64,000 bases of DNA, from the NCBI RefSeq assembly GCF_000327505.1, contig NC_019942.1, forward strand, positions 1,116,001 through 1,180,000. Direction: 5' to 3'. Positions 22,337 through 27,856 of this stretch are shown one piece after another (position 1 is the stretch's first letter; every line of letters starts with the position of its first letter). Made by a program: the position numbers and the translations under genes. Below the pieces are notes generated by a model that saw only the letters and a program-made list of their open reading frames with translations, ran no database searches and was not told the origin of the DNA. This DNA is from Aciduliprofundum sp. MAR08-339. Lineage in GTDB: Archaea; Thermoplasmatota; Thermoplasmata; Thermoplasmatales; Aciduliprofundaceae.

Positions 22337-24001
22337 TTAGAATGTCAGAACCTTTCCAACTGCCCAGTTGGTAACGTATGCAACTATAATGCCGACCCAT
22401 ACCAGCATGGAGAAGTGGAGGTATATGCTGTGCCTATGCGAACCGCTCACTATTTTTATGATCATGGAGGAAACGAGCGCATGAATTACGAGAAGAAGCA
22501 GAAACACAACGCTTGCAGCCTGGAGCGGGAAATGAGCGGATAGAAGGGGAATGTGTATGTACTTCTGCAGATTCACGGGGTAGTATTTTATCATATTGGC
22601 CATCATCTTCATGAGATTGAGTGTTGTGTAGAGTGTAAATGCCATGCCAACCATCAGACCGTAGAGTATGCCCGTCAGATTTGCAGCGGACTGGTACCTT
22701 TTTTTACGCAACCCTATCATACGCACGTATGACTCGCTTATGATCTTTGAAATTTTTCTAGGGTTTCCCCCCATATCCAGGCCTGTAACGAACATATCTG
22801 TGAACTTGGAAATCAGATTGCTTCCCGTCTCACCGGCAAAGTATCTCCACGCCATTTTCTTATCAATTCTTGTGAGCAATCTCTTGTAAAGTGTATCTAT
22901 GTACTTTGTGAGTTTCCCAAAATCATGCTTTCGCAGCCTTTCCATAGCGGTCACATCACTGCCCTTTGCCTCTATGTAACTTCCAACTGCCCTTATGAAT
23001 GCGTCGTAATTTGTATCACAGTTTATCAAGTCACTCTCTGCGGTGTGCACCAGGTATCCCGGGTAGAACAGTGGAAGTATGGATATTGCCACGACTATGG
23101 GGAGGGGCAGGTTCAGGAAGTAGGTGATGAGGAAAAGAAGGGCCACCATGAGATAGGCGAAGGGAATAACCTTGAGAAGTTTCATCTCGTGGGGTGAACG
23201 GACATCCTTCCTGTTGTGCCATACATCGTCCTCCGGCAGGCGTATTTTTATGGCGTAAAGCATAACAGCCTCAACTGTTATGAACGCCAGAAGCATGAGG
23301 TAGAGGTAGATTGTCATATCTCCCGTGGTGAACATGGGCAGTATGGTTACAAATACGGCGAAGAAGAGCATGGATATCAGCATCGCTACAAAAGTTTCCT
23401 TGTAAACATCCATCTGGTTCAGGGCAGCCTCGTACTTGACGGCATAGGTTTCAAGAACCACCGCACGCTCCTTTTCAAGGAAGACTTCAAAATCCTCGCC
23501 GGCATCTGCACTGTGTGCAATCCTGTCCAGAAAATCTGCGAGTTCAACGCTGGGGCATCTCTTGGCAACTATCCTTGTGGCGTCCGGTAAACTCATGTTC
23601 CAGTACTCCATCAGATGGTAAATCTTTGCAATCTCATCGCTCAGGGCACCGTATTCTTTCACCTCCGAGAGTATTCTGAATATTTCCTTACGGGGCAACC
23701 TGGTGGAAGCCAGAACGGCCATTCTTGTTATGAACAGATGCAGGTACTTCTCAATCTCTTTCTTTCTCTTCTCTCCCTTCAGGAGGGGAAAGAGCATGAT
23801 GGTTAGAATTCCGAATGCGGGTATGGTGTACAGAACCAGGGAGAATGGGAAAATGTTGAAAAATTTGAACGAGATTGATAGATAGAGGGTGATGAATAGG
23901 GTGGTGAATAGTATGGGTAAAGCGTACATCAGGATGTATTTTCTCCACGGGATGTCGAATGAGGTGTAGAGCCTTGCCACTTTCTCCCTTATTCCTGCCA
24001 T
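22337..24001 (-). CDS. flaJ: archaellum assembly membrane protein FlaJ/ArlJ
   Basis: About 554 residues, the polytopic platform protein that pairs with the FlaI motor ATPase and is homologous to the T4P/T2S GspF family. Two T2SF-like cytoplasmic regions alternate with hydrophobic segments: helices at about residues 27-75, 210-260, 285-330 and three near the C-terminus. The MAVLASTRLPRKEIFRIL and RIVAKRCPSVELADFLDRI segments resemble the conserved cytoplasmic domain. ATG 24001 was chosen; a GTG at 24010 overlaps the flaI stop. Last gene of the archaellum locus. Confidence 0.93.
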   Translation of the reverse strand: MAGIREKVARLYTSFDIPWRKYILMYALPILFTTLFITLYLSISFKFFNIFPFSLVLYTIPAFGILTIMLFPLLKGEKRKKEIEKYLHLFITRMAVLASTRLPRKEIFRILSEVKEYGALSDEIAKIYHLMEYWNMSLPDATRIVAKRCPSVELADFLDRIAHSADAGEDFEVFLEKERAVVLETYAVKYEAALNQMDVYKETFVAMLISMLFFAVFVTILPMFTTGDMTIYLYLMLLAFITVEAVMLYAIKIRLPEDDVWHNRKDVRSPHEMKLLKVIPFAYLMVALLFLITYFLNLPLPIVVAISILPLFYPGYLVHTAESDLINCDTNYDAFIRAVGSYIEAKGSDVTAMERLRKHDFGKLTKYIDTLYKRLLTRIDKKMAWRYFAGETGSNLISKFTDMFVTGLDMGGNPRKISKIISESYVRMIGLRKKRYQSAANLTGILYGLMVGMAFTLYTTLNLMKMMANMIKYYPVNLQKYIHIPLLSAHFPLQAASVVFLLLLVIHALVSSMIIKIVSGSHRHSIYLHFSMLVWVGIIVAYVTNWAVGKVLTF

Positions 24002-24006
24002 TTTAA

Positions 24007-25650
24007 TCACACCGTAAAGGGTAATTTTTCCACACCGTACTTCTGGAAATCCACTATGATCTTTACAACGTCTCTGTAGCGGAATATGTTGTGCTCAATC
24101 ATCTTGCGAATTATCTTTGCTCTGAGGAAAAGGTCATCGTATACTTTCCTGGGATCAGCATAGCCGAGAAGTGGAGCTATTTTTTCCTCCAGTATGTATG
24201 AGTTGTTGAGTCCCCTGAATATGTGCTCATCACGAAGTGGGTCCCAAACAAACACGGCCTTTGTCATAACTCCCCCAAGTTCTGCCGAATAACCAAGGAT
24301 CTCCTCCACAGAGAGAACTCTTCTAAGGGTTCTACCTTTCAAATAAACGGCCTGCTGGAACACACCTATGTTTAGATTATCCATGAACGTTACAGGCACG
24401 TTTATCGGAGGAGAACTCAGCCTCTGGATCATCCTTTTTATGGACGATGCGTGAAACGTTGCCATAACGGGATGTCCAGTTTGCATGGCCTGAAATGCAA
24501 CATTACCTTCGGCACCTCTTATCTCACCTACAATTATGTAATTGGGCCTGCTCCTCAGAGCGGCTTTCAAAAGATCGAACATCTCAACCCGTGATTCTTT
24601 TGGTCCAGCCTCCCTTGTGAGCAATCTCTGCCATATCTCGTGTGGCACATGCACCTCTGGCGTATCTTCTGCTGTGAAAACCTTGTAGTTGTACTTGATG
24701 AACGGAATTATTGCATTTAACGTTGTTGTCTTACCGCTTGCAGTCTCCCCGGAGATAAATAGGCTTTTTCCGAACTCTATGGCCATCCATAGATAGGCTG
24801 CTATCTCAGCACTGAATGTTCCCCATTTTACCAGTTGCGTCACGCTCAGAGGCTCTGCGGCGAATTTTCTTATTGTGAATGAGGCGCCCTTTATGCTTAC
24901 ATCATCCGCATAAATTATATTTATTCTTGATCCATCTGGCAGGGCACCATCCACTATGGGACGCCCGGTGCTCACCGGTCTACCCATTCTCTCACTCATA
25001 CCTCTAAGATACGAGTCAAGTTCATCGTAACTTGTAAAATGCACATTTGTCTCCATGGTTTCAAATACCTTGTGGATAAGGTGCACTGGCTCTATCCCTA
25101 TTGCGTGAATATCCTCTATGTATGGGTCCCTGAGAAGGGGTTCAAGAGGACCACTTTCTATTATATCCCTCTTTAAGTAATACTCAATCTTATCGTACTC
25201 CTCCTGCGTGACGGGAATCTTTACCTTTCTGAACATGCTCAGAAATCCCTTCTTCTCTTCAAAGGGTACAGGCTCCTCAACGATCACCGTGGAATCCTTT
25301 AGCAGTCTCTCTATTTGCCTCTCAAATTCTTCCTTGGTTTTATGGGGGGGTTCGTATCCTGCCTTTATGAATATGAGCTCTCTCACCTTGTAGTACTTTA
25401 TCTTCTCCTCTTCGCTCATTTCTGGCTGCACCACAATATACTTTCTATCTCCTCTCCTCCCATATATGTGGATGAAGATTGGGTCTCCAACAGGGTATAT
25501 GAGGTTGACCCAGTCAAGGTCCTTCATATCCCTTGATAATTGCTCGTAGAACTCTGGAGTTTCGTTGAGTTCCCTTCTGACCCTCTCAATGTACCTTCCA
25601 AGATGCGGGTTTCTCTTTATTGCTAGGGCTACCTTGGTTCCCATTGCCAT
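24007..25650 (-). CDS. flaI: archaellum motor ATPase FlaI/ArlI
   Basis: About 547 residues of the secretion-superfamily ATPase that drives archaellum assembly and rotation. The N-terminal domain is followed by a linker and the RecA-like domain with Walker A SGETASGKTTTLNA (near residue 305), an Asp-box (KVFTAEDTPEVHVPH), Walker B IIVGEIRGAEG, and a His-box MATFHASS. ATG 25650 follows GAGGTGAT; ATG 25656 and GTG 25659 are alternatives. Positioned between flaH and flaJ as in other euryarchaea. Confidence 0.95.
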   Translation of the reverse strand: MAMGTKVALAIKRNPHLGRYIERVRRELNETPEFYEQLSRDMKDLDWVNLIYPVGDPIFIHIYGRRGDRKYIVVQPEMSEEEKIKYYKVRELIFIKAGYEPPHKTKEEFERQIERLLKDSTVIVEEPVPFEEKKGFLSMFRKVKIPVTQEEYDKIEYYLKRDIIESGPLEPLLRDPYIEDIHAIGIEPVHLIHKVFETMETNVHFTSYDELDSYLRGMSERMGRPVSTGRPIVDGALPDGSRINIIYADDVSIKGASFTIRKFAAEPLSVTQLVKWGTFSAEIAAYLWMAIEFGKSLFISGETASGKTTTLNAIIPFIKYNYKVFTAEDTPEVHVPHEIWQRLLTREAGPKESRVEMFDLLKAALRSRPNYIIVGEIRGAEGNVAFQAMQTGHPVMATFHASSIKRMIQRLSSPPINVPVTFMDNLNIGVFQQAVYLKGRTLRRVLSVEEILGYSAELGGVMTKAVFVWDPLRDEHIFRGLNNSYILEEKIAPLLGYADPRKVYDDLFLRAKIIRKMIEHNIFRYRDVVKIIVDFQKYGVEKLPFTV

Positions 25651-25660
25651 GGGCATCACC

Positions 25661-26350
25661 TCATGATATTGCCATTATCTCGAGAATTATTCCAGTACCC
25701 GCCTCAACCCTAAAAGCGATTGTATTTTCAATTCTTCCAGCAGCATTGGTGTACCTTCTTATGAATGCTATTCTGTTCACCATGCTTCCTATCTTGTTTA
25801 TGGAGGTCTCTATATACACATTGGCGGCAGCCCTGAATGGGGCAAGTATCTCTTCGCGCATCACCCCCTTCTCCACGTTCAAAATTATGGTTCTATCAAG
25901 AGCCATAAGTCTCTTGAAGAAGGATAGCAACTGAACTGAGCGTGATTCAACATTTAAACTTGCTTTCACAAGCGAAGAAAGAGTGTCAATTATGATTATG
26001 TCCGTCTTGAAAAGTGCTGGAGAGGACATCAATCTTCCAAGGAAGTCCTTGCGATCGCGCATATTTCCTATGATTGGGTAAACAGGTACAAACACGAGTC
26101 TATTGCGAAGCAGAAAATTTGCTATTGGATAGTTCAGGGAGTACATCTGCTTTATGAAGTCCCTCACCGTGAGCTCTGTGGAGATTATTGTGACCGTATG
26201 CCCATTCATCAGGAACCCGTAGGCGAATCTCTGTGTCAATGCACTCTTTCCACTGCCGTTCTCCCCCTCTATGAGCACCAGAGACCCCTCCGGAAATCCT
26301 CCTCCCAGACGCGAATGCAGTTCATCCCTCTCAATTTTTATCTTGTACAT
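25661..26350 (-). CDS. flaH: archaellum ATP-binding protein FlaH/ArlH
   Basis: 229 residues, RecA-like fold related to KaiC. Walker A is EGENGSGKSALTQRF (near residue 30) and Walker B lies in DIIIIDTLSSLV; the family binds but hydrolyses ATP poorly and regulates FlaI. The ribosome binding site GGTGTGA precedes the ATG. It is located between flaG and flaI with very short gaps. Confidence 0.94.
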   Translation of the reverse strand: MYKIKIERDELHSRLGGGFPEGSLVLIEGENGSGKSALTQRFAYGFLMNGHTVTIISTELTVRDFIKQMYSLNYPIANFLLRNRLVFVPVYPIIGNMRDRKDFLGRLMSSPALFKTDIIIIDTLSSLVKASLNVESRSVQLLSFFKRLMALDRTIILNVEKGVMREEILAPFRAAANVYIETSINKIGSMVNRIAFIRRYTNAAGRIENTIAFRVEAGTGIILEIMAIS

Positions 26351-26353
26351 TTT

Positions 26354-26776
26354 TCACACCCTGAAGTAGAACGTATCTGATAATCCGTTTTCAAGCACAA
26401 CCTTCACAACGTGAGTCCCAGGTACAAGATCCACATTTATTGTGAGGACTATTGTCTCTCCAGGTAGCCATGTATCCTGGCTCACAGTGTAATTATCTTG
26501 GGCAGTACCATCGATAAGCACTGTTATGTGGCTTGTGCTAAGTGGAACTTTTCCCGTGTTTTTCAGGTATAGGACGAGTGGATTGTTACTCATTCTCGTA
26601 GGGTCGTTTATTATTTTGAACTCTCCTGAAAGCTGGTTTGCGATCATATCTCCCCTATTTTCTATGCCGTTTGATATGTTGAGAACTGCGCTAGCTGCTA
26701 TGCCAACGAAACTGGCAGCGATTACCACGGAGGCAATGAAGAATATTATGTGGGTTGCACTTGTGCTAAGACCCAT
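26354..26776 (-). CDS. flaG: archaellum stator protein FlaG/ArlG
   Basis: 140 residues: an N-terminal hydrophobic helix (residues 8-32) and a beta-rich extracytoplasmic domain, as in FlaG, which forms filaments capping or anchoring the motor to the envelope. Segments LYLKNTGKVPLSTSHITVLIDG and WLPGETIVLTI match the FlaF/FlaG beta-sandwich. The first five residues (MGLST) are the same as those of the flaF product upstream, suggesting duplication. A GAGGTGATGCT ribosome binding site precedes the ATG. Confidence 0.88.
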   Translation of the reverse strand: MGLSTSATHIIFFIASVVIAASFVGIAASAVLNISNGIENRGDMIANQLSGEFKIINDPTRMSNNPLVLYLKNTGKVPLSTSHITVLIDGTAQDNYTVSQDTWLPGETIVLTINVDLVPGTHVVKVVLENGLSDTFYFRV

Positions 26777-26785
26777 AGCATCACC

Positions 26786-27856
26786 TCACAGATACCCGTA
26801 AACCTCATTTCCATATTCATCAACAATCTTCACCCTATAGCCCATGTTCATACCGAGAACTCCCTGTGCACTGATGTAGATTTTTCCGTATATATCTATG
26901 TTTTCTGCCAGAGAAGTCAGGGGAATTTCTCCTGCAAATGTCCCGTTTTCATAAATTAAAATTTCGTTGTGATTATTCAGAACGAAAATGTATGAGCCCT
27001 GCATGTGCTCATCTGCCCCTATTTTTGTTGCATTTGTGATCCTCCAATCTGTGAATCTCGTAATGTAGTATCCATCGTAGGTATACTCATAGATCTCATT
27101 TCCCTCCAGAACGTACAGGTACTTTCCAACAGTAACATCCCTTGCATTCACTAGGGCAACCTCACTTTCCAAATTCCCCGTGGAGTCGAATATGTATAGG
27201 GTGTCATTGGATATCCCGTAAACGTAATTTTCCGTGGCTGTTATGGCTATTATGCTGAGGTTTGCGGCAAAAGACTTTATGTAATTTCCTGAAAAATCAT
27301 ACATCTCTATTTCTGTGGAATTAAGCACATAGAGATAAGAGCCGCAGGCCACGTCCAGTGGAGATTGAATATTCACACTCCACACTCTCACTCCAAGAAA
27401 GGAGTATGCCGTTATGGACGTTTCATTCAGAACATAGATTTTATCCCTCTCCGCGGTTGCTATTACATGGTCTCCAACATCAATTTTGAACTGCACCTCG
27501 TGGGATGTCCCAAGGGTATAATTTGTGCTTATGTCAAAATTCTCTAGATTTCCGGGAAACCAGTAGGGTGAGTTGAAGGTAAAGTTCATCATTGTACCAT
27601 TCACAATTATTGACATATCGCTGGTGTTCAGGGTTAATGGTCCACGATTGATGGCATAGATCTCAATTTTTGAGGAATTGTAAACCACCCTATCCATTTC
27701 AATCACGTTCTTTGCACTCTCCATAAGCGTGCTTCTGTTTTCCATGCCCTGATTTGTTATAGTGTATGAGTAGATTATACTGCTGAGTACTGTTGCAAAC
27801 ATTATAAGCGAAGCCGTGAACAGTATGCCATATGCTGCTGTTGTGCTCAATCCCAT
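26786..27856 (-). CDS. flaF: FlaF-like archaellum protein with C-terminal beta-propeller-like half
   Basis: 356 residues, more than twice the usual FlaF length. Residues 1-125 match FlaF: an N-terminal helix (8-32), then a beta-sandwich with EIYAINRGPLTLNTSDMS and YWFPGNLENF. Residues about 129-356 contain six units of 35-40 residues with strands such as YLYVLNSTEIEMYDFSGNY and YLYVLEGNEIYEYTYDGYY, which looks like a six-bladed propeller (NHL/PQQ-like). Several N-x-S/T sequons suit an exposed, glycosylated surface. FlaF anchors the archaellum to the S-layer in Sulfolobus; the extra half may extend that contact (inference). Confidence 0.8.
   Translation of the reverse strand: MGLSTTAAYGILFTASLIMFATVLSSIIYSYTITNQGMENRSTLMESAKNVIEMDRVVYNSSKIEIYAINRGPLTLNTSDMSIIVNGTMMNFTFNSPYWFPGNLENFDISTNYTLGTSHEVQFKIDVGDHVIATAERDKIYVLNETSITAYSFLGVRVWSVNIQSPLDVACGSYLYVLNSTEIEMYDFSGNYIKSFAANLSIIAITATENYVYGISNDTLYIFDSTGNLESEVALVNARDVTVGKYLYVLEGNEIYEYTYDGYYITRFTDWRITNATKIGADEHMQGSYIFVLNNHNEILIYENGTFAGEIPLTSLAENIDIYGKIYISAQGVLGMNMGYRVKIVDEYGNEVYGYL

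Follow-up and report, generated by a model that had tools for sequence, protein, structure and literature searches.

In Sulfolobus, ArlF (FlaF) caps ArlG (FlaG) and binds the S-layer; mutants affected in the S-layer are unable to swim (PMC8667602, PMC12448462). ArlF is thought to be an S-layer-binding protein, yet Thermoplasma, which has no S-layer, swims (PMC12448462). ArlF models from S-layer-less and S-layered archaea, Aciduliprofundum not among them, differ in minor ways only and reveal no distinct binding motif (Gaines et al. 2025, PMC12448462). The locus described here, in which a beta-propeller is found within the frame of ArlF, touches the question of what keeps the archaellum motor in place against its own torque. 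No description of a propeller in ArlF was found in the open-access literature, and this variant of the motor anchor appears to be undescribed. An archaellum clade with a large, clearly bounded domain inside ArlF would offer a ready-made test of motor anchoring in the envelope.

The ArlF gene and its operon

The window analysed, a stretch of 64,000 nucleotides from the 1,437,090-base genome of the deep-sea vent archaeon Aciduliprofundum sp. MAR08-339, carries an archaellum operon on its minus strand in the gene order ArlB-F-G-H-I-J (Table 1). The ArlF frame has 356 codons, an ATG start and zero internal stops. Its start abuts the ArlB stop directly, and 9 nt separate its end from the ArlG ATG. 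Residues 1-110 matched the NCBIfam ArlF profile (NF052590) at 37 bits, better than the ArlG profile; the curated cut-off of 110 bits lies above this score, and among 400 class genomes it is passed by only 4 of the 69 that have a match. Within its own genome, the ArlF profile matched this protein and ArlG only. Operon place, between the archaellin ArlB and ArlG, together with this sub-cut-off profile match, identifies the gene as ArlF. The original prediction, made from the letters of the window, had described a single open frame with a recognisable FlaF start beside a FlaG that begins with the same MGLST and has no extension, and all of this was found in the operon.

Other archaellum parts were seen away from the main operon. 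One is a second archaellin, which adjoins a 342-aa ArlC/D/E-like protein (G000:C1, about 807.6-809.3 kb; L176:7596-9305). A 289-aa archaellin with an internal insert, matched by Arch_flagellin in two separate stretches, adjoins a 114-aa ArlE-like protein (G000:C1, 338.2-339.5 kb; L177:8244-9469).

Table 1. Archaellum genes of the window and the parts of its ArlF protein (window positions; blades and parts are given in residues of ArlF).
Feature	Position	Strand	Basis
ArlJ platform protein	22337..24010	-	Pfam T2SSF E 2e-21
ArlI motor ATPase	24007..25659	-	Pfam T2SSE E 3e-34; basis of operon tree
ArlH	25661..26350	-	NCBIfam ArlH E 2e-76
ArlG (FlaG), 140 aa, ordinary length	26354..26776	-	NCBIfam ArlG E 5.4e-28
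ArlF (FlaF) with inserted propeller, 356 aa	26786..27856	-	frame; ArlF profile E 2.6e-9; length kept in all 14 complete genes of the family
ArlF part 2: last strand or strands of the sandwich, residues 339-356 (GYRVKIVDEYGNEVYGYL), most conserved stretch	26789..26842	-	best profile completion, 0/1000 shuffles; 71% mean pairwise identity
Blade 6, residues 319-336, 3 strands; fourth probably from 121-125	26849..26902	-	AlphaFold2/DSSP
Blade 5, residues 276-312, 4 strands	26921..27031	-	AlphaFold2/DSSP
Blade 4, residues 238-269, 4 strands	27050..27145	-	AlphaFold2/DSSP; invariant D240, G262
Blade 3, residues 204-234, 4 strands	27155..27247	-	AlphaFold2/DSSP
Blade 2, residues 166-196, 4 strands	27269..27361	-	AlphaFold2/DSSP; invariant P166, D168, G190
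Blade 1, residues 131-162, 4 strands	27371..27466	-	AlphaFold2/DSSP
Conserved strand before blade 1, residues 119-127 (HEVQFKIDV), likely velcro strand closing blade 6 (inferred)	27476..27502	-	strand 121-125; both models
ArlF part 1: N-terminal hydrophobic helix (5-47) and first archaellin-type sandwich strands (52-110)	27518..27856	-	AlphaFold2/DSSP; ArlF profile 1-110
ArlB archaellin, 212 aa	27857..28495	-	Pfam Arch_flagellin E 4.4e-28

Fold of the propeller domain

The protein was modelled with AlphaFold2 from 12 homologous sequences, and strands were assigned by DSSP. Mean pLDDT was 85.4, with values of about 86-97 across residues 141-280. The pTM of 0.70 leaves the orientation of the domains uncertain, and the sandwich was modelled less well than the propeller. 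DSSP placed the N-terminal helix and the sandwich strands as listed in Table 1, then a lone strand at 121-125. Next come five four-stranded groups (131-312) and a three-stranded one (319-336), and the strands 341-345 and 351-355 end the chain. A second model, of a homologue from another family that is 26% identical, showed an identical strand order of 1 + 5x4 + 3 + 2; the two models share their 12 input sequences and are independent only in part. The lone strand lies in the segment HEVQFKIDV, where H119, Q122 and F123 are conserved, and by its position and the strand count it is likely to be the fourth strand of blade 6. The models thus hold five complete blades and a three-stranded sixth; a single candidate strand is available to complete it, and with this strand the ring would probably close.

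Foldseek searches with the window model returned the six-bladed Brat NHL domain first (E 8.4e-12, TM 0.65 of the target, 270 columns), and a Brat NHL chain was also first for the 26%-identical homologue (E 1.3e-10, TM 0.69); over both models, full-length matches to six-bladed Brat NHL had TM values of 0.65-0.70. A profile of 18 homologues, which does not depend on the models, was searched against PDB sequences and again found Brat NHL first (E 8.8e-6), followed by the NHL domains of Thin and TRIM2/TRIM3. The Pfam NHL repeat (PF01436) matched only 1 of the 18 members, at E 0.16. We therefore assign residues ~119-336, with high confidence, to a predicted six-bladed propeller that is NHL-type by fold and is not classed here as a member of the NHL family. 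Searches with the window ArlF as a single sequence found nothing, whether by phmmer against PDB, by tblastn against phages or by a scan of genome contigs; Pfam gave sub-threshold matches only (CARDB E 0.0027), and the genome of origin held no convincing propeller paralogue (next best E 0.14). The six repeat units of the original prediction were recovered by structure prediction over residues 1-356, and its reading of them as a propeller agrees with the profile search as well. The domain begins earlier than had been proposed, at residue ~119 rather than 129, and residues 339-356 belong to FlaF again.

Position of the propeller within ArlF

The place of the insertion was examined with a profile of 17 ordinary ArlF proteins, by scoring 24-residue windows of the remainder of each long protein for how well they complete its N-terminal part. 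In the window ArlF, the stretch from residue 339 to the end completed the ordinary profile best (+13 bits), and 0 of 1000 shuffles of the tail did as well. The extreme C-terminal stretch ranked first in 8 of 9 long ArlF proteins from four families. The tail GYRVKIVDEYGN corresponds to the VKVV..NG strand that ends ordinary ArlF, and its mean pairwise identity is 71%, compared with ~45% for the propeller. Pairing of residues 341-355 with the ArlF sandwich would be expected from this correspondence. The C-terminal strand was also considered as the last strand of the propeller itself, a reading that was provisionally rejected because no other stretch completes the ArlF profile as well as this one does.

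ArlF is thus represented on both sides of the propeller, by the N-terminal helix and sandwich strands in the model and by residues 339-356 through profile completion. Because the last FlaF strand is the extreme C-terminus, profile completion and the models place the propeller as an insertion and not as a tail fusion: it sits inside the FlaF sandwich, before the final strand or strands, in the order sandwich, propeller, sandwich. This revises the layout first proposed, FlaF with a C-terminal propeller.

Distribution and origin

All 14 complete ArlF genes of the source family encode 352-357 aa. ArlF of families f5 (7 genomes) and f20 (1 genome) is 396-399 aa long, one copy lacking its start because the contig ends there, and is homologous to the window ArlF over its full length (full-length alignment, and blastp E values down to 1e-24 in a small sequence set). 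A fourth family (f56, genome G260) has a more diverged propeller ArlF of 398 aa. Presumably the genome of the cultured Aciduliprofundum boonei is among those with the insert. By hand count, ~43 genomes of the class have an ordinary ArlF, including Thermoplasma (families f2, f8, f9, f21, f26, f29 and f30), and ordinary ArlF in the census measured about 137-190 aa. No propeller ArlF was seen among the ArlF matches of 247 Halobacteriota and 115 Thermococcus-phylum genomes, as judged by frame length; two of the Halobacteriota frames, in G686 and G746, are long and were likewise assessed by length alone. The original prediction that such a layout was unheard of is supported as far as the literature search goes; the layout is not unique to this genome and marks an archaellum clade of the Thermoplasmatota.

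In a tree of ArlI, all propeller operons grouped as a single clade (SH-aLRT 98). G260 has a second ArlI, at a locus with a 144-aa ArlF-like frame of ordinary length, and this copy lay outside the clade. Because the ArlI ATPases of propeller operons form one clade, a single origin is likely, and the simplest reading of the tree is that the insertion happened once, in an ancestral archaellum operon, and has been retained ever since. By the same simplest reading, the Thermoplasma archaellum belongs to another branch, though the Thermoplasma family is in the same order.

Several other features of these operons were recorded. G260 has two archaellum loci, on C14 and C117 (L105, L171); the propeller ArlF is at one of them, and the ArlF-like frame at the other is ordinary in length. 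Archaellum operons with two tandem ArlI ATPase genes were seen in f5 and f20 (L166-L170) and also in G270 and G339 (f45); in f5 and f20, by the ArlI tree, both copies are older than the split of the two families. Within the Halobacteriota, an ArlF of ~265 aa (G555:C7:142464-143201) gave two matches to the ArlF profile (1-137 and 53-137), which hints at a duplicated sandwich, and G600:C1:366694 is possibly similar by frame length.

Further variants were found in other Thermoplasmatota. G222 (f41) encodes an ArlF with three C-terminal PKD domains (L107:1868-3115; Pfam PKD_4 E 1.5e-49), followed by a 349-aa ArlG that looks like three tandem sandwiches (L107:3105-4151). In G270, an ArlF-like protein split over two contig ends apparently carries a LamG-type domain (L109:1-368 and L106:409-1212; Laminin_G_3 E 2.4e-14). 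In G091, which we take to be T. acidophilum, an ArlG-like gene of 147 aa directly follows ArlF (L110:9761-10204; ArlF-profile E 1.3e-6). This contrasts with the statement by Gaines et al. (2025; PMC12448462) that an ArlG homologue is lacking in T. acidophilum.

Possible role of the propeller

The window ArlF contains 12 N-glycosylation sequons, against 4.9 expected by shuffling, an enrichment that agrees with a location outside the cell. Conserved propeller residues lie mostly in the core, while the outer strands and connecting loops vary. We found no conserved surface patch on the propeller, and conservation of top and bottom loops did not differ significantly (p 0.14); the d-a loops were the least conserved loop class. 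This lends no support to a conserved small-ligand site.

We consider it somewhat more probable than not that propeller ArlF acts as a larger form of the stator cap, through which the motor is docked onto the protein coat of the cell surface. The ArlF framework would still pair with ArlG and with ArlF, as in Sulfolobus. With two polypeptide connections to hold it instead of one, the propeller would project from the stator cap. There it may dock onto or into the coat, replacing or enlarging the ordinary ArlF contact with the S-layer and providing a broad, rigid anchor with which the motor would resist torque. A larger docking head seems the likeliest role because the ArlF framework is intact and the propeller is inserted by two connections. 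Its partner is probably not the same in every lineage, because the blades vary in their exposed outer parts and keep their core. Beta-propeller and PKD domains are described as typical of archaeal surface-layer proteins (Jing et al. 2002, as cited in PMC10354927 and PMC2447325), which by analogy gives indirect support to the idea of coat-type modules on ArlF. The PKD and LamG-type domains on ArlF of other Thermoplasmatota and the enriched sequons likewise speak indirectly for the docking head.

The propeller might instead serve as a bearing or spacer that packs against ArlG, other ArlF subunits or the rotating ArlB filament, forming a guiding collar for the filament where it crosses the coat. 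This role is unlikely, but it draws some support from the insertion point, which adjoins the most conserved ArlF stretch (339-356) and so may be near the ArlF-ArlG interface, as well as from an ordinary ArlG. A conserved partner such as ArlB or ArlG should have left a conserved surface patch, and none was found; lineages without the propeller, moreover, have the same ArlB and ArlG. Propellers are common as protein-protein platforms, which suits such a collar, and NHL and YWTD propellers often bind ligands. The latter property would fit a surface adhesin or sensor for an external ligand (a glycan, a mineral or other cells), with the motor base as a mere mount, and the PKD and LamG-type domains on ArlF of G222 and G270 show that other Thermoplasmatota attach adhesion-type modules to ArlF. 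We regard this as rather improbable, since no Pfam enzyme or lectin family scored above cut-off and the varying exposed loops, the d-a loops most of all, show no shared ligand site.

It is more doubtful still that the propeller is a neutral elaboration, an old, tolerated and folded insertion that rides along without a role. A single origin in one operon clade would suit a passenger, as would a propeller whose conservation is a little below that of the remaining ArlF. Such a passenger is at odds with the constant length, the ~45% mean identity and the blade cores, which are intact throughout the 14 complete genes of the family and in four families overall; no reduced copies were seen in the propeller operons of these families. 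The unusual length for an ArlF could raise the suspicion that an error of sequencing or assembly has fused two genes, and we give it practically no credence: 14 complete genes of the family have this layout independently, 8 full-length homologues from other families share it, and the final ArlF strand lies beyond the propeller. The frame join that would have undone the original prediction is thereby ruled out.

Beyond the enlarged stator cap, a wider view of ArlF as a modular docking platform is plausible, and we offer it tentatively. The Thermoplasmatota sandwich may repeatedly have been given coat-type domains (an NHL-like propeller, PKD arrays, a LamG-type domain), each fitting the motor anchor to another coat. 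The propeller, inserted once in an ancestral operon and present in at least four families, would then be the coat-binding head of the stator.

Comparison with known systems

Propeller ArlF resembles the ordinary ArlF of Sulfolobus acidocaldarius, Pyrococcus, Haloferax and Thermoplasma in its place beside ArlG, its MG[LF]S N-terminus and hydrophobic helix, its archaellin-type sandwich and its final VKVV..NG strand. Ordinary ArlF differs in having no insert and a correspondingly shorter chain. ArlF of G222 and G270 likewise bears extra extracellular modules, but these are other domains and belong to other operon clades. With the NHL propellers of Brat, Mei-P26, TRIM2/3 and Thin, the inserted domain shares six blades, the strand order and the top structural and profile matches, whereas sequence similarity is weak and the ArlF propeller is nested in an archaellin-type sandwich at the archaeal surface. 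Archaeal surface-layer proteins with propeller and PKD domains show that such extracellular modules occur in the archaeal coat; those are coat proteins, however, and not parts of a motor.
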